Assembly (NCBI GenBank): GCA_026710795.1
Contig: JAPOQK010000098.1
Location: 1 to 64,000 of the forward strand
Reading direction: 5' to 3'
Length of the DNA: 64,000 bases
From: Candidatus Poribacteria bacterium
Lineage (GTDB): Bacteria; Poribacteria; WGA-4E; WGA-3G
The translations under genes were made by a program, and so were the position numbers. The notes beneath the pieces are model-generated. The model was not told the DNA's origin. It ran no database searches and saw only the letters and a list, made by a program, of their open reading frames with translations. Below, piece after piece: positions 7,837-59,764 of the stretch. The first letter of the stretch is position 1. Every line of letters starts with the position of its first letter.

Positions 7837-7850
7837 TAAAGGAGCAAACA

Positions 7851-8549
7851 GTGAAAAACTCAATAACTTATACCTATTGTCTCTTTATATTATGCTTTTC
7901 AATATGTACGGTCTTACCTGCATTTGCAGGAACATGGAGAGATGATTTTGAAGATAATATCACACGAGAGTGGGAGATCTTTAACCTCGACCGTCAAGTC
8001 GAAAAATGGTGGATAAACGATGGAGAAGCCGTTGGTGAAATATTTTTCCCCGGTTTTATGAGTCTCTGGCTTACTGGTGAAATGGATTGGAGATTCTATA
8101 GTGTTTCCTGCAGAGTAATGTTAGAAGACGATAGAAATGATCCACCATACATTGGTTTAACCCTACAGGATAGAGGACATGAAGGTAGTCGATATCTATT
8201 TATGATTTATTTCGTTTCTAATTCTGTTAGCATCATAAAAGGTGTCGCTGGTGGAGGAAGTGTAAATCAACCTTTTGTGGTAGAAAAAGAAGTCTGGTAC
8301 GATATTACTGCATCTGTATCTGAAGATGGAACACTCAAATTCAAAATAAATGACTTTGAATTTACTGCTGTCGATCCTTCTCCTCTAAGAGGTGGACAAG
8401 CAGGACTCGTCGTTGGTGATGCACGGGCAAGATTTGATGATGTAGAAATAAGTGGTGATAACATCCCAAATGGAGGACCCGGAAAACCACGCGACGTTGA
8501 ACCACAAGCAAAACTTGCAACTACTTGGGGAAAACTTAAAATCAGGTGA
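7851..8549 (+). CDS. Secreted jelly-roll (LamG/DUF1080-like) protein
   Basis: Start chosen at GTG 7851 because GGAG at 7841-7844 precedes it and a signal peptide follows (hydrophobic CLFILCFSICTVLPAFA, likely cleavage after AFA). The mature part starts GTWRDDFEDN and is rich in alternating aromatic and hydrophobic strands. This fits a concanavalin/LamG-type beta sandwich that often binds sugars, but no catalytic residues can be assigned. The C-terminus ends KLATTWGKLKIR, a short basic tail after a Pro/Gly-rich linker that might be a sorting or anchoring tag. The stop overlaps the next GTG start by 4 bp (GTGA), indicating translational coupling to the CRTAC1-like gene. Confidence 0.65.
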   Translation: MKNSITYTYCLFILCFSICTVLPAFAGTWRDDFEDNITREWEIFNLDRQVEKWWINDGEAVGEIFFPGFMSLWLTGEMDWRFYSVSCRVMLEDDRNDPPYIGLTLQDRGHEGSRYLFMIYFVSNSVSIIKGVAGGGSVNQPFVVEKEVWYDITASVSEDGTLKFKINDFEFTAVDPSPLRGGQAGLVVGDARARFDDVEISGDNIPNGGPGKPRDVEPQAKLATTWGKLKIR

Positions 8550-10240
8550 CCCTTATTGCTCAGATGTATTCTATTCAGTCTGGTTTTTTCAAGGCAATGT
8601 TATCTATAGTATCATGGATCATATTGCTTGGATCACCATTGATAACACCGTGTCTTCATGCAGAAAGCCTCCTACAATTTACAGAAATCACTAAAGAAGC
8701 GGGGATTGATTTTGTGCATAATAATGGTGCATTTGGTGAGAAGTATTTGCCTGAAACTATGGGATCAGGCTGCGCAATTTTTGATTACAATGCAGATGAA
8801 TGGCAAGACATCTTGCTCGTAAATGGAATGGATTGGGAGGGACATCCTACTGGAAAACGACAGACTTTAGCACTCTATAGAAATAATAAGGATGGAACTT
8901 TCACTGATGTGACGAAAACTGCTGGACTAAATATACCGGTATACGGTATGGGGGTTGCAGTCGCTGATTACGATAATGATGGGGACGACGACATATATCT
9001 AACATGCTTATCCAATGACAAACTATTCCAAAACAGAGGTGATGGTACTTTTCTTGATGTCACAGAAAAAACAGGTATTGATAACCCAAGTTTCGGAACA
9101 AGTTGTGCATGGTTTGATTACAATTTGGATGGTCATCTTGACATATACGTCGCAAATTATGTTGAATGGTCCATTGAAACGGATATATTTTGTACACTTG
9201 ATGGCAAGAACAAATCGTACTGCACACCCGAATCATATAAAGGACAAGCGAGTAAACTCTTTCGCAACCGAGGTGATGGAACATTCGTTGATGCATCTCG
9301 TAGTGCTGGTATAATTGATCCAAACAGTAAATCATTAGGAGTGTGTATTCTTGATTACAATCAAGACGGTTTACCAGATATATTTGAAGCAAACGACACA
9401 CAACCAAACAAATTATACCAGAATAACGGTGATGGTACATTTATTGAAGTAGGAATGCTGACTGCAGTCGCTTATGATGAGGAAGGTGTTGCTACAGGAG
9501 CAATGGGTGTAGACGCTGCAGATTACGACAATAGCGGACGAGAAAGTCTGCTTATCGGGAATTTCTCAAATGAAATGTTGAACCTTTACCACAATGAAGG
9601 AGATTTCTTTTTTGACGTTGCCCCAGTTGCACAACTGGGTTCTACAAGTTTATTGACACTAACATTCGGCTGCTTCTTTTTCGATTTTGACCTTGATGGA
9701 AACATTGACATTTTCACTTCAAATGGACATGTGGAGACAGATATAAATAAAGTCCAAAGTGAAGTTACCTATGCACAACAGCCGCATCTATTTCGCAATA
9801 TGTCTGATGGGACATTCACAGATGTGATTAAGATGGTTGGAAAAGATTTGGCACAACCTGTTGTTGGAAGAGGGACTGCTTACGGGGACATAGATAATGA
9901 TGGTGACCTGGATTTACTCGTTACCACATCAAATGCAGTTGCTCATCTATATCGTAATGATGGTGGAAACAACAATAATTGGATTAAGATAAAACTGATC
10001 GGAAGTGAGACAAATCGCAACGGTATAGGTTCACGTATACTACTCAAATCTTCAAGTGGCACTCAAACAAAAAAAGTAAAAAGTGGATCAAGTTATTGTT
10101 CACAGAGCGAATTAACCGCATTTTTTGGTATAAAAGACGATACGATAATTGAATCCATAGAAGTATTCTGGCTGAGCGAGCAAGTTACTAAATTGAACAA
10201 TATTGAACCGAATCAGACAATAGTAATAAATGAAGACTAA
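8546..10240 (+). CDS. Secreted CRTAC1-like protein (FG-GAP repeats plus ASPIC/UnbV)
   Basis: Begins at GTG 8546, overlapping the preceding stop, and has a hydrophobic signal segment ending near LHAES. The body repeats calcium-loop motifs of the VCBS/FG-GAP type such as DYDNDGDDDIYL, DYNLDGHLDIYV and DIDNDGDLDLLV, which form a beta-propeller. The last 75 residues match an ASPIC/UnbV domain (NGIGSRILL, then VKSGSSYCSQSELTAFFGI). Such proteins are extracellular and probably involved in adhesion or carbohydrate interaction. No enzyme site is recognisable. It closes the gene run that starts at 3259. Confidence 0.85.
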   Translation: MTLIAQMYSIQSGFFKAMLSIVSWIILLGSPLITPCLHAESLLQFTEITKEAGIDFVHNNGAFGEKYLPETMGSGCAIFDYNADEWQDILLVNGMDWEGHPTGKRQTLALYRNNKDGTFTDVTKTAGLNIPVYGMGVAVADYDNDGDDDIYLTCLSNDKLFQNRGDGTFLDVTEKTGIDNPSFGTSCAWFDYNLDGHLDIYVANYVEWSIETDIFCTLDGKNKSYCTPESYKGQASKLFRNRGDGTFVDASRSAGIIDPNSKSLGVCILDYNQDGLPDIFEANDTQPNKLYQNNGDGTFIEVGMLTAVAYDEEGVATGAMGVDAADYDNSGRESLLIGNFSNEMLNLYHNEGDFFFDVAPVAQLGSTSLLTLTFGCFFFDFDLDGNIDIFTSNGHVETDINKVQSEVTYAQQPHLFRNMSDGTFTDVIKMVGKDLAQPVVGRGTAYGDIDNDGDLDLLVTTSNAVAHLYRNDGGNNNNWIKIKLIGSETNRNGIGSRILLKSSSGTQTKKVKSGSSYCSQSELTAFFGIKDDTIIESIEVFWLSEQVTKLNNIEPNQTIVINED

Positions 10241-10265
10241 GGAAGGATGCATTTTACAGGTTTGA

Positions 10266-10691
10266 TTACAAATCGAAAATCACCTGTGCCTCCCAATCAC
10301 CTTCAGGATTCTGTTTGACATATAATTGGTGGTAGGTAACTGCCTTAATCTCTGTGTATACAACATGTTTATCGTAATTTGTTGGTTCACCATAAACTTT
10401 CGCACATAGCTCTGTAGAACTAACACTCAGAATCTCTGCACGTTTAAAAAACATGTCTTCCGTTTCGTGTTTAAATATCAATTCATCTAACCAAGCAACA
10501 AACAACGCTTCAATCGTTTCAACTTGAACATGGATATCCATTACCGATACTTCATCAATTGTATCTACAACTGCGATCATTTCAAATAGACCGTGTGCAG
10601 CATTGGTAAAAAGGGATATAACCGTATCTCCCCGAACAAGCATACCAGCATCGGCTGTATGTTCTATGAATTCAAAAGGTTTTACTTCCAT
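10266..10691 (-). CDS. Archease, RtcB-activating protein
   Basis: Small protein of 141 residues with the archease signature FEFIEHTADAGMLVRGDT at the N-terminus. It ends in a hydrophobic strand closing with Asp-Leu (usually Asp-Ile or similar). Archease stimulates guanylylation and turnover of the RNA ligase RtcB and is usually encoded beside rtcB. Here rtcB is in the same window but about 33 kb away (43274-44728). It converges on the CRTAC1-like gene and diverges from the metalloprotease gene. The family is clear; its action on this RtcB is an inference. Confidence 0.85.
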   Translation of the reverse strand: MEVKPFEFIEHTADAGMLVRGDTVISLFTNAAHGLFEMIAVVDTIDEVSVMDIHVQVETIEALFVAWLDELIFKHETEDMFFKRAEILSVSSTELCAKVYGEPTNYDKHVVYTEIKAVTYHQLYVKQNPEGDWEAQVIFDL

Positions 10692-10713
10692 CTAATAACT
10701 ATCTTTTCAATAC

Positions 10714-10742
10714 TTGTCAACAGTATGCATTCATATTTTAAT
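10714..10742 (+). promoter_or_regulatory. Possible promoter for the secreted metalloprotease
   Basis: TTGTCA (10714-10719), a 17-bp spacer and TTTAAT (10737-10742), about 93 bp before the chosen ATG. The -10 box is weak. Confidence 0.35.
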
Positions 10743-10834
10743 TGTGTTTGATAATTATACTAATCCATACATATATTACACGAATTCACATTATTATAGT
10801 TAATATACTTGATAGTGTCATCTATTATTTACCG

Positions 10835-13800
10835 ATGTCTAAACATACAATTCAACTAAAGTATCCATCACATATCTCACAATATATAATAAGAATTTGT
10901 ACTATCCTTATAGTTGGTTGGTTAGGTTGTTACAATTTCATGCTTCACGCAGAACCTTGGAAATGTGGGACACCGTTGTTGTGTCAAGATTTACCGCTAA
11001 CTAACATACAAAAAAACACAAATATAAATAGTATATTAGCTGCACCTGCAGCACCCGCCATAATTGGACAAATTGACCGATTTTTCATTCATATTCCTCC
11101 AGCATCAATCAAGGCTAAATGTATTGCCGTAGGTGTACATTGCTATATCTATATTGACGAAACTGTTCAGGATATGCTTACCGATAATGAAGCAGAAGCA
11201 GTAGCGGATACGTTTGACACAAAGATATACTCAGAAGTACATCACTGGATGGGATCAGAATTTCAACCGGGTTTAGATCGTGACAACAAAATAACTATCC
11301 TGTTCCACGATGTCGGAATGAATATGTCTGCCAAAGACTACGGTGGTTATTTTTCACCAACCGACCTACACCCAACACATCCTACAAGTAACCGCAGAGA
11401 TATATTATATTTGGATATTTATCAATTCAAACAACGTTCACGCCATACCTTCTATAGTAGTCTCGCACACGAATTTGCACATCTTGTGAACTGGTATCAG
11501 AATGGCGGAACAACAGATCAACGCTGGTTAGAGGAGGGCATTGCTTCACTTGCAGAATGGGGAGTTTATGGAACTGTTCATACACTATTTGTGGACGGCT
11601 ACCTCGCAGAACCCAGCATATCTTTGACGACTGCTAACACTTTTGAATCCTACTATGGTGCAGCATTTATGTTTCTTCTTTACCTATACGAAAACCATGG
11701 TGGGATTGACTTCATACGTCAACTTGCAGCAGAAGATACTCTCGGACTTCCAGCGATTGATATTTCATTAGGTAATAATAACATTGTTGATATCTTTCTA
11801 TATTGGTCTACTGCGAACTGGTTAAACAATCCTGTAAATGGGAAGGAACTTAGTTATCAAAACTTACCAAGACGTAAAGTAACAAAACCCACACCTCGTA
11901 TCACACATTATCCCGCTACCTCAGCAGATATTCCTATTGATAGTTGGGGTGTGAAATATATTCTCTTCCAAAATCTACCTGAAAATCTTGAATTGACTTT
12001 AATTTCAAACAATACATCAAAGTTATATGCAAATATAGCATATTTTGAGCCGAATAGAAACCGTCCCATAATCACACCTTTTCCAGATGCTCCTGTGCCT
12101 AACAATCCAAATATACAGAATTTAAATAGGATGGAACTCTCGAATTTAAAGCATGAAGGAGAAGTCCTTGTAATTATTACTTCCGAATATCCGCAGTCAT
12201 TCCGTTATACTGCAATACAGGGACAGGGAAATGACCCAATCAATATATTAGAAAATACACTTGATAGAAATAGACTTCATTTGGATAATCAGTGGCTTCC
12301 CAACACAGTTACATTTCCTTCATATCGGAACACAGAACAGATAAGTAGTCCACAAAAGGTAGGAATAACCTTAGTATCACCTAACCAATCAACAAGACTT
12401 GAACCGATGACACAAATTCATCTTTCAAGCAACTATTACGCTATCGTAATACAGGAAGATTTAGCTTTTGCTGCCAGTGATTGGGGACTTGAGATCTTCT
12501 CTTTAAACCCATCACCAATACATATTGGTGAAATTGAAACACCAGGGATTGCTCAAGCCATTGCCGTGGATGATGGTAATGTTTATATAGCAGATGGGGA
12601 ATCTGGTGTACATCTCATTGATGTTAATCATCCAAATTCACCTCGTTGGGTGAAAACACTCGCAGGGTTACAAGATGCACTTGATGTTTATATAGCAGAC
12701 GGGAACTTATATGCTCTTGATACAGTGCGCGGTCTCTTGATATATAATCTACAAGATATTCGCAATCACGACAATCCACATCCAAGACGTACATTTCAAA
12801 CAGCAGGCATTCCATTAAATGTCTCTACATTAGATGATGGAACAATCTATCTAAGTGACAATGCACAAGGTGTATACATATTGACTCCAGATCAACTTGG
12901 AGGGTTCACAGTTAATGGGATAATTTCCATACTCGCAACTGATTTCACTATATTGGGAGATTTTGCGCTTGTTGCATCAGGAGATCTCCGGATAATGAAT
13001 TTTGCTAATCTTATTGCACCAAGACTTCTATCACAAGCAAACACACCAGGAAAGGTCTCATCAGTTCAGTTGTTCCAAGAATTATTATACCTTACGGACA
13101 GACAATCTGGACTTCAAATCGTTAATGTCAATAATACAAATGCCCCGCGTATGATTTCCTCAATTCCAACTACTGGAAATGCTGAAGATGTTGCCCTACG
13201 GTATTCAGATACAGATAAGGAAATATATGCCTATGTTGCGGATGGAAAAGGTGGCATCCAAACCATAGATGTAACACAACCAAATATACCAAAATGGATT
13301 AACCATTACAATGCTACAGGTATCGCATATTCGCTGGATGTGGAAGTTGACGGTGATAATACGACAATTGCAATTGCAAATGGGATAGGTGGATTAAAAA
13401 CTGCCGAATTGACTGATCCATACAATGGAGAAATTTCTCAGGTAATACGCTCTTCCTATGGAGAACAAGGTACACTTTGTGTAAAAATTCGAAAGCCACA
13501 TGCATTCGTGGGATTAGAAAATGGAATGGATGTCATAAATCTACAAACAGGAGAAAAACTTAAACATATCCGAACTACAGACCCAGTATGGGATATCGCA
13601 TTGATCCAAGACTACGCATATTTATGTGCAAAATCCCTTTATGTTGTAAATATCAAAACTCCTATCAGCAGTCATATAGTATCAAATCGAATGTTACCCG
13701 GATCAGCATACAAAATCACACATAATGCATCACATGTATATATTGCTTCACTGGACGGTGGCGTTCAGATTATAGATATTGAAGACCCAGCACAACCGCG

Positions 13801-47218: not shown

Positions 47219-49852
47219 TTATGCTTTTGCTTCAATGACAGCCTGTGCTGCAGCTAAACGAGCGATTGGTACACGGAATGGGGAACAGGAAACATAGTCG
47301 AATCCTAAACCGTAGCAGAACTTCACTGAATGTGGTTCACCGCCATGTTCACCACAGATACCAACTTTCAGATCAGGTCGTGCTTCGCGTCCTTTTTCAC
47401 ATCCAATCTGCAATAAAGTGCCAACACCTTCCTGGTCCAAAACTTGGAATGGATCATATTCGAGAATTCCATTTTTGACATAATCGTCAAGGAATTTCAC
47501 TGCATCATCCCGACTCATACCGAATGTTGTTTGGGTAAGGTCATTTGTGCCGTAAGAGAAGAATTCAGCTTCTGCAGCAATTTTGTCAGCAGTAAGTGCT
47601 GCGCGGGGTAGTTCAATCATCGTTCCGATGAGGTATTCAACTCGACTACCTGTCTCCTTAAAGACTTCTTCCGCAGTATCATCAACAACTTTACGTTGTA
47701 ATGAGAATTCGTTGACATGTCCAACGAGAGGAATCATAATTTCTGGTAATATTTTGATGTCGCGTTTTGAAACATCTACTGCCGCTTCAAAGATTGCTCG
47801 TGCTTGCATCTCTGTGATTTCGGGATAAACAATACCAAGTCTACATCCGCGATGTCCAAGCATTGGATTGAATTCATGTAACTCCTCTACGCGCTCACGT
47901 AGTTTTTGTGCATCAACATTAATCCTTTCAGCGAGGTCAGTAATTTCAGATTCATTTTTCGGTAGGAACTCATGTAATGGCGGGTCAAGTGTGCGAATTG
48001 TAACCGGATATCCAGCCATCGCCTCAAAGATACCGATGAAGTCTGATCGTTGGTGTGAAAGTAGTTTTGTCAGTGCTTGTTTACGTTCAAATGTGTCATC
48101 TGCAAGGATCATCTCTCGGACCGCATCAATCCCTGTTCCAAAGAACATATGTTCAGTTCTACAGAGACCTATACCTTCTGCTCCGAATCCGCGTGCATTT
48201 TTCGCATCTTCTGGTGTGTCTGCATTGGTTCTAATGTCCAATGTTCGGACTTCATCTGCCCATTCCATAAGAATCCCGAATTGTCCACTGAGTTCAGGTT
48301 GAATTAAGGATACTTGTCCACTAAGCACATCTCCAGTAGAACCGTTGAGGGTAATGAAATCACCTTCTACGTAGCGTTTTCCACCAACGATAAATTCTAA
48401 TGTTTTCTCATTTATAAATAGATCAGAACATCCAGCAACACAACATTTTCCCATACCGCGTGCAACAACAGCAGCGTGACTTGTCATACCGCCACGGGCG
48501 GTCAAAATACCTTCAGCTGCATCCATACCACCAATATCTTCTGGTGAAGTTTCCGCACGGACGAGAATGACTTTTTCACCTTGAGCGGCAAGTTCTTCTG
48601 CTCGGAGTGCAGTGAACACAACTTTCCCAACTGCAGCACCTGGGGATGCTGGTAAACCTTGAGCAATTACTTCAACAGAGGCATCAGGGTCAACACTCGG
48701 ATGTAACAATTGATCAAGATCGTTGGCTGGGACACGCGTTAAGGCAGTTTCTTTATCAATCAAGCCTTCTTCAACCATCTCAACAGCGATACGTACTGCT
48801 GCTTGTCCGGTTCGTTTTCCATTACGTGTTTGCAGCATGTAGAGCGTACCGTCTTGTATTGTGAATTCTACATCCTGCATGTCGCTATAGTGCTTTTCTA
48901 ATTTCAATCCGAAAGCGACTAATTCATCATACGCCTCTGAATTGATATTTCTTAATTCCGATATTGGTAATGGCGTTCTGATACCAGCAACAACATCTTC
49001 CCCTTGTGCATTCATAAGGAATTCACCATAAAACTGGTTTGCCCCTGTCGAGGGGTTACGAGAAAAAGCAACTCCTGTGCCAGAACTTCCCCCCATATTA
49101 CCAAATACCATTGCCTGGATATTCACAGCAGTCCGTCCAAGTTCTTCTGAAATATCGTTAATACGACGGTAGGTGATCGCGCGTGGATTTCCAGATGATT
49201 CAAATACAGCATCGCGTGCCATATCTAACTGACGACGGGGTTCATCAGGAAAATCGCTTCCTGTTTTCTGCTTAATAACACCCTTGAATTCATTGACGAG
49301 TTCTTGCAGATCAGATGCTTCCAATTCCGTATCTAAAGTGACACCCTTGTTCTTTTTCTTTTCTTCGAGCAGATGTTCAAATTCGTCATGGTCAACACGT
49401 AACACTACATTACCGAACATCTGAACAAATCGACGGTATGCATCGTAAGAAAAGCGTTCGTTACCAGACTTTGTGATTAACCCCTTCACTGCATCGTCAT
49501 TGAGACCGAGGTTTAGGATTGTATCCATCATACCGGGCATTGAAACAGCAGCACCGGAGCGTACAGAAACAAGTAGTGGGTCTTCTGTATCTCCAAATTT
49601 TGCATCCAATGCATCTTCTAATTTCTGTAGATTCTCGGTAATTTGTTGGTCAAGACCGTGAGGGTATTTCTTATCGTTATCATAATAGAATTTGCATACT
49701 TCAGTGGAGATCGTGAAGCCGGGAGGTACTGGTATGCCGAGATTAGTCATCTCAGAAAGGTTTGCTCCCTTACCACCGAGTAAGAGTTTCATGGTGGCAT
49801 CACCTTCACCTTCACCAGCTCCAAAGAAGTAAACATACTTCGGTTGAGTCAT
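47219..49852 (-). CDS. ppdK: Pyruvate, phosphate dikinase
   Basis: Interconverts pyruvate, ATP and phosphate with phosphoenolpyruvate, AMP and diphosphate. The 877-residue protein has an N-terminal nucleotide-binding half (GGKGANLSEMTNLGIPVPPGF, SGAAVSMPGMMDTILNLGLN), the phosphohistidine domain GGMTSHAAVVARGMGK with catalytic His near 459, and a C-terminal PEP-binding barrel with GYPVTIRTLDPPLHEFLP and GICGEHGGEP. Family length is normal. GGAGG precedes the ATG. It follows the Pup-proteasome locus by 104 bp and is probably a separate unit. Confidence 0.95.
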   Translation of the reverse strand: MTQPKYVYFFGAGEGEGDATMKLLLGGKGANLSEMTNLGIPVPPGFTISTEVCKFYYDNDKKYPHGLDQQITENLQKLEDALDAKFGDTEDPLLVSVRSGAAVSMPGMMDTILNLGLNDDAVKGLITKSGNERFSYDAYRRFVQMFGNVVLRVDHDEFEHLLEEKKKNKGVTLDTELEASDLQELVNEFKGVIKQKTGSDFPDEPRRQLDMARDAVFESSGNPRAITYRRINDISEELGRTAVNIQAMVFGNMGGSSGTGVAFSRNPSTGANQFYGEFLMNAQGEDVVAGIRTPLPISELRNINSEAYDELVAFGLKLEKHYSDMQDVEFTIQDGTLYMLQTRNGKRTGQAAVRIAVEMVEEGLIDKETALTRVPANDLDQLLHPSVDPDASVEVIAQGLPASPGAAVGKVVFTALRAEELAAQGEKVILVRAETSPEDIGGMDAAEGILTARGGMTSHAAVVARGMGKCCVAGCSDLFINEKTLEFIVGGKRYVEGDFITLNGSTGDVLSGQVSLIQPELSGQFGILMEWADEVRTLDIRTNADTPEDAKNARGFGAEGIGLCRTEHMFFGTGIDAVREMILADDTFERKQALTKLLSHQRSDFIGIFEAMAGYPVTIRTLDPPLHEFLPKNESEITDLAERINVDAQKLRERVEELHEFNPMLGHRGCRLGIVYPEITEMQARAIFEAAVDVSKRDIKILPEIMIPLVGHVNEFSLQRKVVDDTAEEVFKETGSRVEYLIGTMIELPRAALTADKIAAEAEFFSYGTNDLTQTTFGMSRDDAVKFLDDYVKNGILEYDPFQVLDQEGVGTLLQIGCEKGREARPDLKVGICGEHGGEPHSVKFCYGLGFDYVSCSPFRVPIARLAAAQAVIEAKA

Positions 49853-49956
49853 TAAATTCCTCCAATTATTGATTGTGGTCTGAAAGCAGTCAGTGTATTG
49901 ATTATGGTTTGTACTGAAAACTGGTTAACGTTTTCCACAACTGACTACAGTAAAAA

Positions 49957-51318
49957 TTAGATCGAATAAATCATACGACTTGCTTCTTCAAATTCAGGTT
50001 CAAGGGGGTCTGTTGATAGATAGAGTTTTTGATACGGTTCATACAGTTGTATATAACTCCAGTTTACACCACAAAGGACTTTTCCATTATTTACAAGTTT
50101 GATAAATCTGCCGCGGAACTTTGCCCTTGTCCTTTCTGGAGGGGAATGCATCGCTCTACGAATCTGTGTGTCGTCCAAAATCCTTTCGGTTAATCCACGT
50201 TTTTCTGCTTTATAATATACACTGGTATCTTGACGTATATTGTGATATTCTAAATCCAAACGTCTTACTTCTGCGGAATTCCAGTCAAGTGAACGATGTT
50301 TGACATAAGTCTCTATCCATTTTCTTTTGATGACCCAATCAAGTTCACGATCCAATTGCAGCGGGTCTTTTTCAAGTCCATTCATTACGTATTCCCATCG
50401 TGTCATAATCTCGTCGGTCGTTGGGTCAGATTCTTCTTGTGCCAGATACCGTTTTGCACATTCGAAGTATAGCCACTGAAGTTCTATTGCAGAAAGCCGT
50501 TTTCCGTTTTCAAGTTCAATGAGTCGTTTACATGAAATATCTTCAGATATTTCGTGTATGGCTTGCACAGAGTTTCGTAGAGCAAAACGTTCCGTTATAA
50601 AATGGTCTTCAATCATACGGAGAATGATACCAGTTGTTCCGACTTTCAAAAATGTTGAAAATTCGGACATATTGGAATCACCTACGATGACGTGCAAGCG
50701 TCTATATTTTTCTCTGTCAGCGTGGGGTTCATCGCGAGTGTTTATAATACCGCGGGCGGTAGTTGTAGCGATTGAAATTTCTTCGCGGATGTGTTGTGCG
50801 CGTTGGGAAATCTCATAGAAACCTTGGTCGCTTCGTTTAATCTTTCCCGCGCCGGTATATATTTGTCTGGTGACGAAAAAAGGAATGAGCTGTGATGCTA
50901 ACTGCCGAAAACTAACTTTTTCGCGTTCCATTAGATAGTTTTCATGACAGCCGTATGTATTTCCTACAGTATCTAAGTTATTTTTAAAAATTGAGATTCT
51001 TCCGCGAAAACCGTCAGCACGCATTCTCCGTTCAGCTGTTGTTGCGAGCCGAGTGACGATTCTTTCTCCTGCTTTATCGTGCGCCACAAGTTCAATGACA
51101 TCATCACATTCAGGAGTTGCATATTCAGGATGGCATCCAATATCTTGATAAAACCTCGCACCGTTTTCAAGAAATACATCAGGATACATTCGTCCAGAAA
51201 TTATTTCTCGGAATAGATACATTACAACATTCTGTACAGTTAATTTTTTGCCTCTATTTTTGTCTGGGGTACAGATGATTCCGTATTCGGTTTCCAATCC
51301 GTATATTCTACGATGCAT
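49957..51318 (-). CDS. pafA: Pup ligase (proteasome accessory factor A)
   Basis: Links the C-terminal glutamate of Pup to substrate lysines with ATP. 453 residues of the carboxylate-amine/glutamine-synthetase-like fold. The N-terminal RRIYGLETEYGIICT holds the catalytic Asp/Glu region, then GARFYQDIGCHPEYATPECD, FKNNLDTVGNTYGCHENYL, INTRDEPHADREKYRRLHVI and VGDSNMSEFSTFLKVG. Ends LEPEFEEASRMIYSI, like actinobacterial PafA. The insertion loop (WDY...ESPL...DARG) that marks Dop is absent, which separates it from the paralogue at 53140-54624. Its ATG overlaps the prcA end by 11 bp. Confidence 0.95.
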   Translation of the reverse strand: MHRRIYGLETEYGIICTPDKNRGKKLTVQNVVMYLFREIISGRMYPDVFLENGARFYQDIGCHPEYATPECDDVIELVAHDKAGERIVTRLATTAERRMRADGFRGRISIFKNNLDTVGNTYGCHENYLMEREKVSFRQLASQLIPFFVTRQIYTGAGKIKRSDQGFYEISQRAQHIREEISIATTTARGIINTRDEPHADREKYRRLHVIVGDSNMSEFSTFLKVGTTGIILRMIEDHFITERFALRNSVQAIHEISEDISCKRLIELENGKRLSAIELQWLYFECAKRYLAQEESDPTTDEIMTRWEYVMNGLEKDPLQLDRELDWVIKRKWIETYVKHRSLDWNSAEVRRLDLEYHNIRQDTSVYYKAEKRGLTERILDDTQIRRAMHSPPERTRAKFRGRFIKLVNNGKVLCGVNWSYIQLYEPYQKLYLSTDPLEPEFEEASRMIYSI

Positions 51319-52018
51319 GGTTAAATATCTCTGCTATCTCTTCAACTGAAAACCGACGAAATTTACGGCGTCCAGAAGTCGCATCAAGACAACTAACTTC
51401 TATTGTATGTGGTGTTATCTCATACGGTTCCGATTCGTCTACTTCAATAGATTCAAAAGCGCGTGAGGCAAGCTGCAGGGCATCTGCTAATTCTAAACCA
51501 TCTGTGAAGGTTTCATTCAGTTTTTCAGTAATAGCATCTGCTCTTCCGCCTATTACAGCGAACTTTTCGCTTTCCTCATAGGTTCCATCAAAAGTGATCT
51601 TGTAAATCTGACTTCTTGTCTCAGGGTTACTGTCCACCTCACATACAAGAAGTTCAATCTCAAGTGGCTTTACATCCCATCCTTGTGCGATTGCACTCAT
51701 GTGTTGTGAGTATAGGTTTGTCAACCATTTCCCGGTAACATCTTCCCGGTAATAGGTATATCCTTTAACCTCTGCTTCACGAATACCAGCTACTCGAAGT
51801 GCCTCATATTCTGAAACACGTCCAGTTGAAGCAAGCGCGATTCTATCGTAAATTTCAGAAATCTTGAATATTGTTCTACGTGGGTTCTCGGCTACCATTA
51901 GAAGGCCGTTGTTGTACTCTAATACAACCACCTCCTTTGCTTGTTCAATACCCCGATCAACAAAGACCTTTTTATCTTCCCAAATTTGATCGGGTGAAAC
52001 GTAATATGGCGTTGACAT
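51308..52018 (-). CDS. prcA: Proteasome alpha subunit
   Basis: Outer-ring subunit of the 20S core. 236 residues beginning TPYYVSPDQIWEDKKVF, like the actinobacterial PYFISPEQ start that forms the gate. It continues with LLMVAENPRRTIFKISEIYDRIALASTG, characteristic of prokaryotic alpha subunits. The C-terminus adds a charged tail ending VEEIAEIFNHAS. GAGGGA precedes the ATG. The Mpa ATPase should dock to pockets between alpha subunits. Confidence 0.94.
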   Translation of the reverse strand: MSTPYYVSPDQIWEDKKVFVDRGIEQAKEVVVLEYNNGLLMVAENPRRTIFKISEIYDRIALASTGRVSEYEALRVAGIREAEVKGYTYYREDVTGKWLTNLYSQHMSAIAQGWDVKPLEIELLVCEVDSNPETRSQIYKITFDGTYEESEKFAVIGGRADAITEKLNETFTDGLELADALQLASRAFESIEVDESEPYEITPHTIEVSCLDATSGRRKFRRFSVEEIAEIFNHAS

Positions 52019-52056
52019 TGTTCCCTCAATTATAAAACTAAATGAATACAGACTTA

Positions 52057-52845
52057 CTATTGTTCTAAACGTGAGACTAATTCATGGAACATACCTTCAA
52101 CAGTTTCGTCTGAGACATCCGATACACCCTCTTCTGTGATAACTGTCAAAGTAGGAAAGATTTTCCTAATTAAATCGGGACCGCCAGTAGCGATATCCTC
52201 ATCTGCAGCATCCCAAATTGACTCTATTACAGCCTTTAATGCAAATTCTTGATTCATTTCTGGATGAAATATCTTTTTTAAGGTAGACCTTGCATCTTTT
52301 CCACCAGAACCGATTGCATAATAGGCATCTTCCTCATATCTCCCACCAAGAACATCATATTTAAATATCCGACCCTTCCCCTGTTTTAAGTCATAACCCG
52401 CAAATAAGGGTAGGACAATTAGACCTTGCATAGCTAAACTTATATTTGTCCTGACAAGGCTTGAAAGATAATTTGCTTGTCCATCCAAACTTAATGAAGT
52501 TCCTTCCATTTTTTCGTAGAACTCCACTTGAACTTGGAATAGTTTTGCTGTTTCAAAACAAGGTCCAGCAACACCAGCGATTGCAATAGCAGAATGTCTG
52601 TCAATTTTAAACACTTTCTTTATTCGTCTTTCCCCAACTTGGTATCCTTCTGTTGCTTGACGGTCACCAGCAATAATAACACCCTTATCATATACAAGTG
52701 CCAGAACAGTAGTTCCTTCCAAGAAATTGTGTGGAAAGTTCTCCTGCATACCGTTCAGTCGGGTCCAGTCAGCAACATGTTCAGGGGAACGACTTTTCAG
52801 AATTTGTAGAAAATCGGTTGTTCCATAGTCATGGGGTTTGAGCAA
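52057..52845 (-). CDS. prcB: Proteasome beta subunit
   Basis: Catalytic inner-ring subunit. A 44-residue propeptide precedes the mature N-terminal threonine in NFLEGTTVLALVYDKG (cleavage before Thr45). GVIIAGDRQATEG follows with the conserved Asp and active-site region. 262 residues. The start is a TTG, 2 bp after the pup stop. Its ribosome site GGAGGT lies inside the pup codons for the final Gly-Gly-Gln, so translation of pup and prcB should be coupled. Confidence 0.94.
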   Translation of the reverse strand: MLKPHDYGTTDFLQILKSRSPEHVADWTRLNGMQENFPHNFLEGTTVLALVYDKGVIIAGDRQATEGYQVGERRIKKVFKIDRHSAIAIAGVAGPCFETAKLFQVQVEFYEKMEGTSLSLDGQANYLSSLVRTNISLAMQGLIVLPLFAGYDLKQGKGRIFKYDVLGGRYEEDAYYAIGSGGKDARSTLKKIFHPEMNQEFALKAVIESIWDAADEDIATGGPDLIRKIFPTLTVITEEGVSDVSDETVEGMFHELVSRLEQ

Positions 52846-52847
52846 TC

Positions 52848-53045
52848 CTATTGACCTCCACGTTGGATAAAGTTTTCAACGAATTCCTCGGAATCTTCTT
52901 CTAAAATCTCATCAATTTCATCAAGAAGAGCGTCTAAATCGTCAGTCAAATCGTCCACGTTGTCCTTAATTTCGGAATTTGGTTGGATCTCCTCATTTTC
53001 ATTAATGTGGTGATCTCTGTATTCTTGCTGTTTTTCGCGTGGCAT
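52848..53045 (-). CDS. pup: Prokaryotic ubiquitin-like protein
   Basis: 65-residue tag protein. The C-terminal half carries the Pup coiled-coil and tail: DALLDEIDEILEED, EEFVENFIQRGGQ. Mycobacterial Pup ends EEFVRAYVQKGGQ or similar. The final Gln means that Dop must first deamidate it to Glu before PafA can conjugate it. The N-terminal half is acidic, disordered-looking and poor in Lys. AAGGAG lies upstream of the ATG. Short enough to be missed by length filters. Confidence 0.95.
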   Translation of the reverse strand: MPREKQQEYRDHHINENEEIQPNSEIKDNVDDLTDDLDALLDEIDEILEEDSEEFVENFIQRGGQ

Positions 53046-53139
53046 GTTGTACTCCTTTTAATATCAAGGTTACGGTAGTACCGTCTCCTGTATTATCTAA
53101 CATAATTCCATCGGGTAAATCTCTTTTTCAACAAGATCA

Positions 53140-54624
53140 TTAGTCATCAAAACGGATTTTGTTAACGAGTTCATCAACGCTACATGAGTTCAATAATTCA
53201 CCTATAATTGCTTGTGTGCCAAAATGTGGACGTTCCATCATTATTTTATCAAATCCTGTGGGTCCATTGAAAACAATTGAATTCCAACTTACACTGTGAA
53301 TGTTGTTTGGAAACTTTCGTAAACATGTTCCTCTAAAATATGCGCGTGTGTCTAAAGGAGGATGCTGAATTGCATGAACGACCTCCTCTTGTGACAATAT
53401 ACGTTCTACATGTCCGTTCTTGAGTAACCGAGCATAAAGTCCTTTTTCAGGACGAAGGTCATGATACTGAAGATCAAGCATGCGAACGCGCGAGTCTGTC
53501 CATTTAAAACCGTGTCTATTAATATACGCATCAATCAGTTTTTTCTTAATCACCCAATCTAAATGTTGTCCCATACTCATTGGATCAGATTTCAAACTGC
53601 TTAGTACAAATTCCCATTTTTCCAATACATCTATTACTACTGGAGTTCGTTCCTCATTTGATAAGTGTTGATGTGCAAGTTCCAGATATGCTTGTTGGAT
53701 TTCTATAGCAGTCCAATTCCGATCATCTTTCAGGGCAATTTTGTTTTTGCAAGATAAATCTCGTGATACAGATTTTATCACTGCTACAGGATCTTGTAAA
53801 GCAAATTGACTACCAACAACACCTTTTTCGATTAATCTCAGGATGAGAGCAGTAATTCCGACTTTCAAGTAAATGGTGAATTCAGACATATTTGAATCAC
53901 CAACAATGACATGTAAACGACGATATAATTTGGAATCTGCGTGTGGTTCATCACGAGTGTTGATTATTGGACGTTCAACCATCGTGCTAAGTCCCACCTC
54001 TTTTTCAAAGAAATCTGCACGTTGCGAGATTTGGAAATCGGTATCCTCAGTTCCGTTTTCTACCCCTACCTTTCCACTACCTGTGAAAATTTGACGTGTC
54101 ACAAGAAATGGTGTTAATCCATCAACAATATCAGTGAAAGGGATTTTACGCGACATTAAATAATTTTCATGTGCTCCGTAACTATGTCCTTTATAATCTG
54201 TATTGTTTTTGTATATTATTATCTCCTGATTATCCAATAGTAGTTGTTCAGCAGTGAGACGACTTAACTCTAAGATAAGTTCGCCTGCTTTTTCGTATTT
54301 TACCAAGTCTCGTGCGTTTGTGCATTCAGGTGTACAATATTCAGGATGTGCGTGATCAACATAGTACCTTCCACCATTTATTAAAATATCGTTAATGACA
54401 CTGTTATTTGCATCATCTGAAGTAGGATTTTCACCTTCAACCGTAAAACCCCGTGCATCCATCAATGGACTTTCTTGTGCATAGTCCCACAAAATTGTTG
54501 GAATATTACGGTTATTATAGGCATTTACAACCAGTGTTGATGCTGCTACAAGATCTTGTTCTCGTGCATTTTTGACTGAGATGCCGAACTCAGTTTCGGT
54601 GCCGATAATTGTTGGTGCTGTCAT
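53140..54624 (-). CDS. dop: Pup deamidase/depupylase
   Basis: Deamidates the Gln end of Pup and removes Pup from conjugates. 494 residues, paralogue of PafA, with TIIGTETEFGISVKN, the Dop-specific loop LWDYAQESPLMDARGFTVEG, GGRYYVDHAHPEYCTPECTN, YKNNTDYKGHSYGAHENYLM and INTRDEPHADSKLYRRLHVI. All landmarks match actinobacterial Dop in order. A 94-bp gap follows before pup. Confidence 0.95.
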   Translation of the reverse strand: MTAPTIIGTETEFGISVKNAREQDLVAASTLVVNAYNNRNIPTILWDYAQESPLMDARGFTVEGENPTSDDANNSVINDILINGGRYYVDHAHPEYCTPECTNARDLVKYEKAGELILELSRLTAEQLLLDNQEIIIYKNNTDYKGHSYGAHENYLMSRKIPFTDIVDGLTPFLVTRQIFTGSGKVGVENGTEDTDFQISQRADFFEKEVGLSTMVERPIINTRDEPHADSKLYRRLHVIVGDSNMSEFTIYLKVGITALILRLIEKGVVGSQFALQDPVAVIKSVSRDLSCKNKIALKDDRNWTAIEIQQAYLELAHQHLSNEERTPVVIDVLEKWEFVLSSLKSDPMSMGQHLDWVIKKKLIDAYINRHGFKWTDSRVRMLDLQYHDLRPEKGLYARLLKNGHVERILSQEEVVHAIQHPPLDTRAYFRGTCLRKFPNNIHSVSWNSIVFNGPTGFDKIMMERPHFGTQAIIGELLNSCSVDELVNKIRFDD

Positions 54625-54666
54625 TATTTACTTTCGATAGATAATAAATTTAGTGGAATTTCATTC

Positions 54667-56463
54667 TTAGAGATATGTTCCACCCTTGCTAATTCGCATT
54701 TCTGGATTCCTACGTGTCTCAGGTTCATTAATCAAGGCTCGGATATTAACGATTTTTTCGCCTTTCCTACCGGAAATTTTTGCCCAATCATCTGGATTAG
54801 TTGTATTTGGAAGATCTTCGTTTTCCCGATATTCTTCACGTATAGCTGTTACAAGATCATCAAGCGAAATACCCTTATCCTTTCCTTCAGAACTGATTAG
54901 CCGCTTTATCGCCATCTTCTTTGCTCTTGAAACGATGTTCTTAATCATTGCGCCACTAACGAAATCTTTGAAAAAGAGGGTCTCGCGTTCACCCCGCGTG
55001 TAAGTCACTTCTATGAAACGGTTTTCTTCGGTAGTAGCATACATCGCTTGAACAGCTTCAGATATAAGGTGTTCTGTTACATCTTTTGTATTACCATCAA
55101 AATTTTCCATTTCTGTCTTGGCGAACGGTAAGTCAGGAGTTAGATAGATAGCAAAGATATCCTTGGCACCATCAATATTAGGACGATCTATTTTAATCTT
55201 CACATCAAGTCTACCGGGTCTCAGCACGGCAGGATCCAGAAGGTCTTGTCTATTGCTTGCACCGATAACAATAACATCTCTTAAGTCTTCAACGCCATCA
55301 AGCATTGAAAGGAACTGTGGTACAAGTGTAGACTCCATGTCTGATGATATTCCCATACCACGCGACCTAAAAAGAGAATCCATTTCATCAAAGAAAATGA
55401 CAACAGGGAAACCTTCTTTTGATTTATCCCGTGCTTTTTGAAAAACTTCTCTTATCTTTCGCTCTGTTTCCCCAACATATTTATTGAGAAGTTCAGGTCC
55501 CTTAATATTTATGAAATATCCTTTAACATCATCCCTATCGTTCTGTTGACGCATCCGTTCGGCTAAGCAATTGGCAACTGCTCGTGCAATTAATGTCTTT
55601 CCACATCCTGGTGGTCCATACAGTAACACACCTTTTGGCGGTGTAAGATCAAATTCACGATATTCATCTGGATACAGATATGGCATCTCAATAGCATCTC
55701 GAATTGCTTCAATCTGTGTGTCCAGTCCACCAATGTCAGTGTAATTTATATCCGGTACTTCTTCAAGCAGTAAGTCATCCAGTTCACGTTTTGGAAGTTT
55801 TTCAAGAAGCATTCCACTGGTATGATTTAGCAAAACAGGGTCACCTATTTTTAAGGTTTCATTTTTTAACGCATCTGAGATACGTACAACCTGTTCTTCA
55901 TCTGTCCGAAGACTAACAACCGCACGATCAGTTTCCAGAACTTCTTTAATCTTAACAATATCACCGTGTTTTTCTGGAGGTTTAATCGCAACGACATTTA
56001 AGCCACTATTGACTATGACTTCTTGTCCAACATGAATTTGGTTGGGATTTATTGAGGGATCGTGATTGACACGCCACTTTTTTCCACCGATGTCAACATC
56101 AATTGTGTTGTCATCATTTACACCGAGAAAAATGCCGTAGTTATTTGGAGGCGCGCTGAGCTGCTTGACCTTTTCTTTTAATAGTTCAAGTTTTTCTTTA
56201 GCTTCTTGAAGCGTATTTCTAAGTTTTCGATTTTGACGGTGCGACTGCATAAGTTCACGTGTCATTTCGTAAAGACGCGCATCAACATCATCATTAGGGG
56301 CAGTACTGAGTTGCCTTCGCAAATCGCTGACTTCGTTCTCAAGCATCTCTATCTGCCAATTCAACTCACGAATCCGTTGAGGATAATTTGCTTGATCCGA
56401 TGCAGTTTCATCAATATCAGAATTTTTCAGTAACTCGGATGAGGTATCTCTTTTGCTAGCCAT
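54667..56463 (-). CDS. mpa: Proteasome-associated AAA ATPase (Mpa/ARC)
   Basis: Hexameric unfoldase that recognises Pup and feeds substrates to the 20S core. An N-terminal coiled coil (LNWQIEMLENEVSDLRRQL, about 25-90) binds Pup. OB-type domains follow (VDIGGKKWRVNHDP region), then the AAA module with GPPGCGKTLIARAVAN and VVIFFDEMDSLFRSRG. The C-terminus ends Gly-Thr-Tyr-Leu, like the Gly-Gln-Tyr-Leu tail of Mpa that opens the alpha-ring gate. ATG 56463 is preferred; an in-frame GTG five codons upstream is possible. First gene of the Pup locus. Confidence 0.94.
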   Translation of the reverse strand: MASKRDTSSELLKNSDIDETASDQANYPQRIRELNWQIEMLENEVSDLRRQLSTAPNDDVDARLYEMTRELMQSHRQNRKLRNTLQEAKEKLELLKEKVKQLSAPPNNYGIFLGVNDDNTIDVDIGGKKWRVNHDPSINPNQIHVGQEVIVNSGLNVVAIKPPEKHGDIVKIKEVLETDRAVVSLRTDEEQVVRISDALKNETLKIGDPVLLNHTSGMLLEKLPKRELDDLLLEEVPDINYTDIGGLDTQIEAIRDAIEMPYLYPDEYREFDLTPPKGVLLYGPPGCGKTLIARAVANCLAERMRQQNDRDDVKGYFINIKGPELLNKYVGETERKIREVFQKARDKSKEGFPVVIFFDEMDSLFRSRGMGISSDMESTLVPQFLSMLDGVEDLRDVIVIGASNRQDLLDPAVLRPGRLDVKIKIDRPNIDGAKDIFAIYLTPDLPFAKTEMENFDGNTKDVTEHLISEAVQAMYATTEENRFIEVTYTRGERETLFFKDFVSGAMIKNIVSRAKKMAIKRLISSEGKDKGISLDDLVTAIREEYRENEDLPNTTNPDDWAKISGRKGEKIVNIRALINEPETRRNPEMRISKGGTYL

Positions 56464-56547
56464 ACAATATATTCTCACTTTCCATTGAAAAGATTGATGG
56501 TATGGTAGAATGTTGATAGGTTTGATGTACCAACATTAGTGCCTAAA

Positions 56548-56576
56548 AGTATAACATGTTCAAATATATACATCAA
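56548..56576 (-). promoter_or_regulatory. Promoter for the Pup-proteasome operon
   Basis: On the minus strand TTGATG (56571-56576), 17-bp spacer, TATACT (56548-56553), about 85 bp upstream of the mpa start. Confidence 0.65.
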
Positions 56577-56654
56577 GAAAAAACATTATTGTGTGGTATA
56601 TTTCCACTTACAAATAGGATTTCAATATTACTTGATATTGATTGATCAAAAAAC

Positions 56655-57806
56655 CTAAATGTCATCATCGTCAATACTTGTGGTAGCAGACGTATCCTCA
56701 AATCCAGTGTCAACTTCTTCTTCACCTTCTTCACTTGGAATTGATCCTGCAACAGAGTCTAAAAGTGAACCGATGTTTTCTCGGATTTTTCTGTCAAGTT
56801 CAGCAGTAACTTCTGGATTCTCCTCCAAATATGTTTTTACATTATTTCTACCTTGACCAATTCTTTCATTATTATATGAGAACCATGATCCTCTTTTCTC
56901 TATGAATCCAGCCTCAACAGCAATATCTAATAGGGTGCCTTCTTTAGAGATACCTTTACCAAAAGTTACATCAAATTCGGCTTCTCTGAAAGGTGGTGCG
57001 ACCTTATTTTTTACAACCTTTATACGGACTCTGTTACCGAGTACGTCTGTCCCTTCTTTAATTTGTGTAGAACGACGAATTTCTAATCGGACAGATGCGT
57101 GAAACTTCAAGGCAAGACCACCCGGTGTAGTATCTGGATTACCAAACATCACACCAATTTTTTGTCGGATTTGATTTGTGAAAATAACACATGTCTTCGA
57201 TTTATTCGTTACTCCCGACAACTTTCTTAATGCCTTAGACATCAAACGAGGTAGTAAGCCTACATGTGCATCACCCATTTCACCTTCGATCTCTGCTTGT
57301 GGCGTTAATGCAGCAACCGAGTCAATGATAACAACATCTATGGCACCGCTACGGATAAGGGTTTCAACGATTTCTAATGCTTGTTCACCTGCATCTGGCT
57401 GTGAGATTAACAGATTTTCAAGATTGACACCTATATTTCGTGCATAAGTTGTATCCAATGCATGCTCAACATCAATAAAAGCTGCGATTCCACCCATTTT
57501 CTGTGCTTCAGCAACGATGTGGAGTGCCAAAGTGGTTTTTCCCGTGCCTTCATGCCCAAATACTTCAATTATTCTTCCACGCGGTACTCCGCCAACCCCC
57601 AAAGCCAAATCAAGAGATAGAGCACCTGTAGGAATTGCTTCCACAGGAACAACTTCATTATCAGTAAGCCGCATAATCGCGCCTTTACCATAAGCACGTT
57701 CTACTTGAGAGATGGCTTGGTCTACTGCTTTCTTTTTCTCTGCAGTTATTTGTGGTTCTTCTGAATTCAAATTTTCTTCCGACTTTTTTTGTTCGTCATT
57801 TGCCAT
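56655..57806 (-). CDS. recA: Recombinase RecA
   Basis: 383 residues. The ATP site reads GHEGTGKTT (84-92), a variant of the usual GPESSGKTT. Other landmarks are [56 protein letters not shown] and a C-terminal acidic tail. It promotes strand exchange and SOS-type repressor cleavage. AGGAG lies within the thpR 3' end and the start overlaps thpR by 11 bp. Confidence 0.96.
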
Positions 57807-59020: not shown

Positions 59021-59764
59021 TTAATTTTCTGAAAGATCAATTATCTCGGCATCTTTAGGAATAACAAATTTGAAAACGTCATTAGGCAACTTCTTATCTC
59101 GTACTATATTTGACAACTTCATAACAACATTTCGACGACTTCCATCTTCATATACAGTCACGTATCCAAATTGAACGGGAAACCATTCACTTTTATTAAC
59201 CCATATTTCAAGTATCTCCTTAACACCTCCACCCTCCTGATTTCTTTGTATATCATCACCTTTATTGTTTTGATTCGCAGATCTGTTTAACAGATTTTGC
59301 TTTGGAGTCAAATGTATTTGATATATACCTTTTTTATTCGCTGCTTCATCAGGCACTAATTTCATATTCCAGTTGCTTGATAAATCCTCCAAAGATGCCC
59401 CCGTTCCCGGTAGGATTTCTTGTCTTTGTTGGTTTGGCAACTTCTGTTTATTGACTTCATTTAGGAGTGGTGTGTAAGACCATACAAACTCACCATCTAA
59501 TACGATTGTTTTCACAACCTTATTTAAATCTTTTGGTGAGACATATTCCATGTTTAGCAGGTTAGGTTTTCCGAATGTAAATCTACCCCGACTTAAACTT
59601 TTTCTGGTTTTATATAGTGTCGTTTCCTCAAAATCTGCACTGAAGTTACTACACTTACCGTATGCAGTTTTGAAATTCTGGAATACCTCATCTACCGTAT
59701 AGGAATACCCAATATTCACAAAACATAGACAAAGCAACACTAAACTGAAATATACGCGTTTCAA
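59021..59764 (-). CDS. lolA: Outer-membrane lipoprotein carrier protein (LolA-like)
   Basis: Periplasmic chaperone that escorts lipoproteins to the outer membrane. TTG start with AGGGAGA 6 bp upstream. A signal peptide (VYFSLVLLCLCFVNIGYSY) precedes a LolA-type half-barrel: NFSADFEETTLYKTRKSLSR, GRFTFGKPNLLNMEYVSP, VVKTIVLDGEFVWSYTP. Its presence shows that this organism has an outer membrane. A probable promoter lies at 59823-59846. Co-transcribed with pgsA, thpR and recA. Confidence 0.88.
   Translation of the reverse strand: MKRVYFSLVLLCLCFVNIGYSYTVDEVFQNFKTAYGKCSNFSADFEETTLYKTRKSLSRGRFTFGKPNLLNMEYVSPKDLNKVVKTIVLDGEFVWSYTPLLNEVNKQKLPNQQRQEILPGTGASLEDLSSNWNMKLVPDEAANKKGIYQIHLTPKQNLLNRSANQNNKGDDIQRNQEGGGVKEILEIWVNKSEWFPVQFGYVTVYEDGSRRNVVMKLSNIVRDKKLPNDVFKFVIPKDAEIIDLSEN

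Follow-up and report, generated by a model that had tools for sequence, protein, structure and literature searches.

Ubiquitin-like tagging of proteins in bacteria has been studied mostly in Actinobacteria, with one tag. Outside that phylum Pup conjugation was reported in 2008, with Nitrospirae, deltaproteobacteria, planctomycetes and verrucomicrobia named (PMC2588565), so Pup loci are already on record for bacteria with an outer membrane. A second system, UBact, is credited to Lehmann et al. 2017 (BBRC), as cited in PMC12751074 and PMC12441361, and PMC11354881 names Pup and UBact together as prokaryotic tags. Two tag-proteasome loci, L1 and L2, had been noted in Leptospirillum ferrooxidans in 2012 (PMC3511204). 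In the proteasome, the subunits from Armatimonadetes, Nitrospirae and Verrucomicrobia form a group distinct from those of Actinobacteria (PMC5666114), which fits UBact-type cores. PMC7947786, which does not mention UBact, makes the case for a single ancient duplication of Dop/PafA and for transfer from Actinobacteria. Here we describe a Pup-proteasome locus in a 64,000-nucleotide stretch of DNA from a Candidatus Poribacteria genome (contig JAPOQK010000098.1 of assembly GCA_026710795.1; this whole stretch is called the window) together with a UBact locus elsewhere in the same genome. The two machines are kept together in the class and, judged from gene sequences, most likely provide two largely insulated degradation routes.

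The Pup-proteasome locus of the window

The six genes lie on the minus strand at 49957-56463 in the order mpa-dop-pup-prcB-prcA-pafA, and all are intact and tightly packed. Coordinates and family models agree on the contiguous, one-direction locus that the original prediction had read from the DNA letters alone. Only 42 bases separate mpa from dop, 94 separate dop from pup, 2 separate pup from prcB and 38 separate prcB from prcA, whereas prcA and pafA overlap by 11 bases. The ATPase gene mpa (also arc; 54667..56463) encodes a coiled coil followed by OB and AAA domains (PF17758, PF16450, PF00004) and scores 708.5 bits against TIGR03689 (cut-off 504.75). Its start was placed at the ATG at 56463; a GTG at 56478 is also open. 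The C-terminal tail, which was aligned together with the coiled coil with those of relatives, reads GGTYL and thus bears out the predicted Gly-Thr-Tyr-Leu gate tail. The adjacent dop (53140..54624; PF03136) encodes a deamidase/depupylase homologue with 574.5 bits against TIGR03688 (cut-off 492.3), Phe at the alpha-loop position and the catalytic Asp. The Dop-loop is likewise in place as a long insert ahead of this Asp, which lies 82 residues from the N-terminal motif, versus 52 in PafA.

The tag gene pup (52848..53045) encodes 65 residues ending in GGQ, the Gly-Gly-Gln terminus that had been claimed, and scores 63.8 bits with PF05639 and 50.7 bits with TIGR03687 (cut-off 41.45). The tag matches Pup and the locus itself is not of the UBact kind. 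The beta subunit of the 20S core is encoded by prcB (52057..52845; TTG start; 277.7 bits against TIGR03690, cut-off 191.9), in which Thr1, Asp17 and Lys33 of the mature enzyme are present. Thr1 is Thr45 of the precursor, so that, with TTG as the start, 44 residues precede it as a predicted propeptide, in agreement with the propeptide that had been noted. The alpha subunit gene prcA (51308..52018) gives 235.7 bits with TIGR03691 (cut-off 139.05), and its product matches solved bacterial PrcA chains. The last gene, pafA (49957..51318), encodes a Pup ligase homologue that exceeds the PF03136 cut-off by a wide margin (502.5 bits), has TIGR03686 as its best model, carries the ligase-type His at the alpha-loop position, lacks the Dop-loop and forms one clade with actinobacterial PafA. 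The window therefore holds a true and intact Pup-proteasome locus. One predicted element, a promoter in front of the locus, is unsupported because the number of promoter-like sites in 49600-56900 is at chance level (22, versus 21.9 with a standard deviation of 4.0 in shuffled sequence).

In the proposed mode of action Dop would convert the C-terminal Gln of Pup to Glu and PafA would couple Pup to lysines of target proteins. The Mpa coiled coil would then grip Pup, and Mpa, docked through its GTYL tail on the PrcA/PrcB core, would unfold the target and feed it in; Dop may also remove Pup from targets. Among the fetched Poribacterial loci Pup ends in GGQ in some and in GGE in others, and hence the need for deamidation would differ within the phylum. 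A different use of the tag, in which Pup would be mainly regulatory rather than chiefly a degradation signal, has a model in the corynebacteria, which pupylate proteins without having proteasome genes (PMC3511204). However, the ATPases of organisms without proteasome genes have no C-terminal interaction motif (PMC3511204), whereas the locus described here has kept prcA, prcB and the docking tail of the ATPase in intact and conserved form, and we consider a mainly regulatory role very improbable.

A UBact locus in the same genome

The genome comprises 4.70 Mb in 114 contigs and is 94% complete. Searched with the Pup-ligase family, it gave four genes, the two of the window and two on a second contig, C75. 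The C75 genes belong to a locus (L036) on one strand that has the gene order of the window locus: a second proteasomal ATPase (mpa2, 6620-8446), a Dop homologue (dop2, 8505-10022), a 65-residue tag (ubact, 10079-10276), 20S beta and alpha subunits (prcB2, 10276-11157; prcA2, 11136-11921) and a PafA homologue (pafA2, 11938-13425). The tag is UBact, with 66.8 bits for PF20513 (cut-off 27.8) and 73.8 bits for NF033388 (cut-off 35). It is the only UBact match of the genome, in which no second match to the Pup model was found. Its C-terminus is RTGE, and with a TGE end deamidation should be unnecessary. The five large C75 proteins have the expected Pfam domains, and in trees the locus groups with UBact loci of other phyla. 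Thus the genome has two complete and very different ubiquitin/proteasome-like tag systems. The prediction of a full intact set stands, in that the window locus is complete and under purifying selection, but the account was incomplete because this locus is only one of two tag-proteasome systems. The UBact machine would use a basic, TGE-ended tag without deamidation, its own ligase and deconjugase homologues, a separate set of core subunits and an ATPase of its own that ends in -VI. With a tag of its own for each route, two sets of substrates could be destroyed independently.

The trees comprised 57 loci, chosen from 206 fetched loci, plus the window. Open reading frames below set lengths (mpa 450, dop 400, prcB 200, prcA 190 and pafA 380 residues) were left out, including the split dop genes of loci L204 and L095. 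In the PrcB tree a branch with full support and a length of about 3.3 changes per site divides the proteins of the Pup kind from those of the UBact kind, and Thr1, Asp17 and Lys33 are kept in all 58 PrcB rows (two rows are identical). The ATPase C-termini differ sharply and without exception. The Pup-type proteins end in G-x-[YF]-[LF] in 19 of 19 rows and the UBact-type proteins in [VIA]-[IV] in 30 of 30, the row from a solved structure (PDB) being cut before the tail. Proteasomal ATPases dock through a terminal hydrophobic-Tyr-X motif, and the UBact-type -VI tail has no Tyr; the two conserved tails (Tyr-Leu versus Val-Ile) predict two docking codes. The tags are also opposite in charge, Pup being acidic (isoelectric point 4.05) and UBact basic (10.33). 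Against one congener, the ratio of nonsynonymous to synonymous change (dN/dS) was 0.03-0.09 for the Pup locus (dS 1.3-1.8, and hence rough) and 0.04-0.11 for the UBact locus, with dS of both loci at 0.95-2.1; dS was saturated against a second, more distant relative. By these ratios both loci are under purifying selection.

Distribution and history of the two tags

The phylum survey covered 84 Poribacteria genomes, including the genome studied here. Pup was found in 77, UBact in 75 and both in 70, and all six single-contig genomes (G023, G045, G079, G081, G082 and G083) possess both tags. The ligase family is represented by exactly four genes in 62 of the 84 genomes and by four or more in 69. 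Neither tag was found in G001 and G002; both are members of other classes and lack ligase-family genes altogether. One genome of the same class (G006, 64% complete) gave nine ligase-family matches, which may be copies or fragments, versus four in most genomes. A single tag was found in twelve genomes, Pup in seven and UBact in five. Of these twelve, seven have exactly two ligase-family genes (Pup-only G003, G025, G030 and G071; UBact-only G024, G029 and G065), the number expected where a whole module is missing, although some of these are drafts. Among 14 control genomes the ligase family was detected only in Corynebacterium glutamicum, and UBact in none. The description of the Pup system as patchy outside Actinobacteria thus needs qualification: the locus does lie outside that phylum, but within Poribacteria its distribution is not patchy.

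A scan of named genomes with the UBact alignment gave at least 469 confirmed stretches. The best 80 of these span Poribacteria, Verrucomicrobia, Latescibacterota, Armatimonadota, Nitrospirota, Gemmatimonadota and others, and subsets of 50 (for co-occurrence with Pup) and 32 of the 80 loci, which overlap with the 84 genomes of the phylum survey, were followed up. Pup was also present in 14 of the 50 genomes: 9 of 10 Poribacteria, 5 of 6 Nitrospirota and none of the remaining 34. In a Nitrospirota sample of 118 genomes UBact was found in 40, of which 34 also had Pup and 34 had four or more ligase-family genes. Double possession is therefore known from two phyla. In four Nitrospirota (G095, G100, G118 and G124; loci L157, L172, L177 and L199-L202) mpa1, dop1, prcB1, prcA1 and pafA1 are clustered and pup lies on another contig, flanked by genes that resemble those for a membrane pyrophosphatase and recJ. 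The pup gene is in place within the locus of G112, and in G123 the other five genes are present and no Pup was found.

Verrucomicrobial loci such as L085, L089, L092, L109 and L111 have UBact, prcB and prcA together, and mpa, dop and pafA were not found in the fetched stretch of up to 10 kb on either side; these are split loci. The UBact-system Dop and PrcB of L098 (Latescibacterota) lie very near those of L131 (Gemmatimonadaceae) in the trees although the phylum labels differ, as would result from transfer or from a contig that was misplaced. In plasmid and phage collections there were matches from Nonomuraea, Tsukamurella and an unverified faecal record, the latter labelled 'Bacteriophage sp.' (L198, MT835496.1), with dop- and pafA-like genes on what is perhaps bacterial DNA. 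A search of viral contigs for a Dop like that of the window matched one stretch, none being confirmed, with a single-protein query that reaches close relatives only.

These data bear on whether the two systems act separately. They might instead exchange tags, ligases, ATPases or cores, with both ATPases serving the same cores, for example, or one Dop acting on both tags. All parts of the two systems are homologous, and the displaced pup of Nitrospira argues that tight linkage is not needed. The joint trees of Dop and PafA do group ligase and deconjugase by system, but they are silent on any swapping of ATPases or cores. Against such exchange stand the ATPase tails, which differ between the kinds without exception, the very deep split of the core subunits, the opposite charges of the tags and genomes that possess one whole module only. 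We therefore think exchange unlikely, though it is the most serious of the alternatives, and favor two largely insulated routes.

Several observations weigh against a picture of two intact and separate systems. The window PafA scores 517.7 bits with TIGR03686, under the equivalog cut-off of 551.3, and none of the five C75 enzymes and subunits reaches the NCBIfam cut-off of its Pup-system model. The ATPase coiled coils reflect the opposite charges of the tags only weakly, and in Nitrospirota they do not (alignment-based mean net charges of -0.9 for Pup-type and -5.4 for UBact-type in Poribacteria, versus -2.3 and -0.8 in Nitrospirota), and for these reasons we do not rely on coiled-coil charge. 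Five of the twelve one-tag genomes have three or four ligase-family genes, so that in the drafts the set of enzymes is not always matched to the tag. Finally, intactness does not extend to every copy in the lineage: the dop copy of G085 (C163:3-800, L204), at a contig end, has one in-frame stop, which is either a true loss or a sequencing error.

Poribacterial Dop and PafA proteins of the Pup kind each form one clade (support at least 99) that branches broadly by family code, and the rows nearest to the window proteins are Poribacterial, with 87% (Dop) and 94% (PafA) identity in a congener. Poribacterial Pup-type PrcB needs two changes on a quick tree, with Nitrospirota and Actinobacteria inside, and UBact-kind PrcA likewise needs two. 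The Dop tree joins Poribacteria with Nitrospirota (96/93), whereas the PafA tree joins Nitrospirota with Actinobacteria (80/71). No tree places the Poribacterial locus inside Actinobacteria, which are thinly sampled at one to four rows per gene (three Dop and one PafA in the 48-row tree). Given this disagreement and the few actinobacterial rows, these trees do not separate an actinobacterial from another ultimate origin. We regard the Pup system as old within the class and as mostly vertically inherited. Of the two origins that the original prediction had offered, ancient or transferred, the Dop and PafA clades favor the old, vertical one within Poribacteria; PrcB does not show it.

In a further alternative the locus would be a recent transfer from an actinobacterium or part of a contaminating actinobacterial contig. 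Both PMC7947786 and PMC3511204 favor the view that Nitrospirae at one time received the pathway from Actinobacteria, and the thin sampling noted above leaves room for an actinobacterial source. Against this stand the phylum-wide conservation of Pup, the Poribacterial nearest neighbors of Dop and PafA, flanks shared with relatives and a guanine plus cytosine (GC) content of the locus bins (0.386-0.421) that lies inside the range of the whole window (0.349-0.425); nothing observed supports a recent event. On conservation, shared flanks and GC we reject both contamination and recent actinobacterial transfer, to which we assign a negligible probability, and the locus is best regarded as native to its Poribacterial host. 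The flanking genes are recA upstream (56655..57806, minus strand; PF00154), which recurs in 4 of the 11 Pup loci fetched from other Poribacteria, and ppdK downstream (47219..49852, minus strand; PF01326, PF00391, PF02896), encoding a pyruvate phosphate dikinase-like protein and found in 6 of the 11, in families up to class level. Context is given by lolA (59021..59764, minus strand; PF03548, 45.4 bits), for an outer-membrane lipoprotein carrier. Together with seven Omp85-family matches in the genome it fits an outer membrane, and, as had been argued from this nearby gene, the host lies outside Actinobacteria.

The Dop/PafA family and known systems

Diagnostic positions of Dop and PafA were taken from Table 1 of PMC7947786. 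All 105 rows keep the catalytic Asp. At the alpha-loop position Pup-type Dops have Phe in 21 rows and Tyr in 1 (n=22) and UBact-type Dops have Phe in 32 of 32, whereas PafA has His in 19 and Tyr in 1 of the Pup-type rows (n=20) and His in 24, Tyr in 5 and Phe in 2 of the UBact-type rows (n=31). From the N-terminal motif to the catalytic Asp, Dop is about 30 residues longer than PafA in both systems (medians of 82 versus 52 for Pup and 94 versus 64 for UBact, counting only rows with the N-terminal motif: 19/22 and 7/20 for Pup-type Dop and PafA, 28/32 and 28/31 for the UBact-type proteins).

In the joint Dop and PafA trees the deepest split is by system rather than by enzyme (SH-like approximate likelihood ratio test 97 with 105 rows; 87/92 with 48 rows and a mixture model). 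By eye, UBact-type PafA (for example L036:11938-13425) has a stretch that looks like the initial half of a Dop-loop and that is absent from Pup-type PafA. From this split and this stretch, PafA may have arisen twice, each time from the Dop-like enzyme of its own system. The change between hydrolase and ligase would then have occurred at least twice, for two tags, and both machines would now sit in one cell with different docking tails. We put this forward tentatively and think it rather less probable than not, because a constraint that holds all Dops together costs 12.4 log-likelihood units and a single ancient duplication is not rejected (approximately unbiased test, p-AU 0.259), and because Dop and PafA hold the same class marks in both systems. 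Alignment columns fixed by enzyme and by system at the 80% level number one each and are uninformative. These alignments are compatible both with two separate duplications and with a single ancient one after which the enzymes of each system adapted to their shared tag. Either way, the family now has a second natural pair in which to ask how a hydrolase becomes a ligase. Moreover, as most genomes of an outer-membrane class have two full systems, the orthogonality of ligase, tag, ATPase and core becomes directly testable, as does what a cell gains from two routes.

The window locus resembles the actinobacterial Pup-proteasome system in its six genes: a Pup ending in GG[EQ], a looped Dop, PafA, PrcA/PrcB and a coiled coil/OB/AAA ATPase with a Tyr-containing tail. 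It differs in its outer-membrane host, in the single tight run of six genes, in a PafA under the equivalog cut-off and in the second system alongside. The Pup ligases of Plesiocystis and Rhodopirellula likewise occur with Pup outside Actinobacteria, but they have transmembrane inserts and no linked proteasome genes (PMC2588565), whereas the window locus has proteasome genes. The C75 locus is like the described UBact system in its tag (PF20513/NF033388) and in the linked Dop, PafA, proteasome and ATPase homologues. The window locus is of the Pup kind, and the genome possesses both. No statement on Pup or UBact in Poribacteria was found in the open-access literature, which is weak evidence of absence as coverage was partial. 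The nearest counterpart is Leptospirillum ferrooxidans, also an outer-membrane bacterium, in which L1 and L2 are complete, very different and of the same order, and the L2 tag, lacking GGE, would fit UBact (PMC3511204). That report concerned one species and was not framed as Pup plus UBact, whereas here the pair is found in most genomes of another phylum. What we describe is therefore a known system in a phylum for which we found no report, in a double form that is kept across a class and has its precedent in Leptospirillum ferrooxidans and the Nitrospirota.

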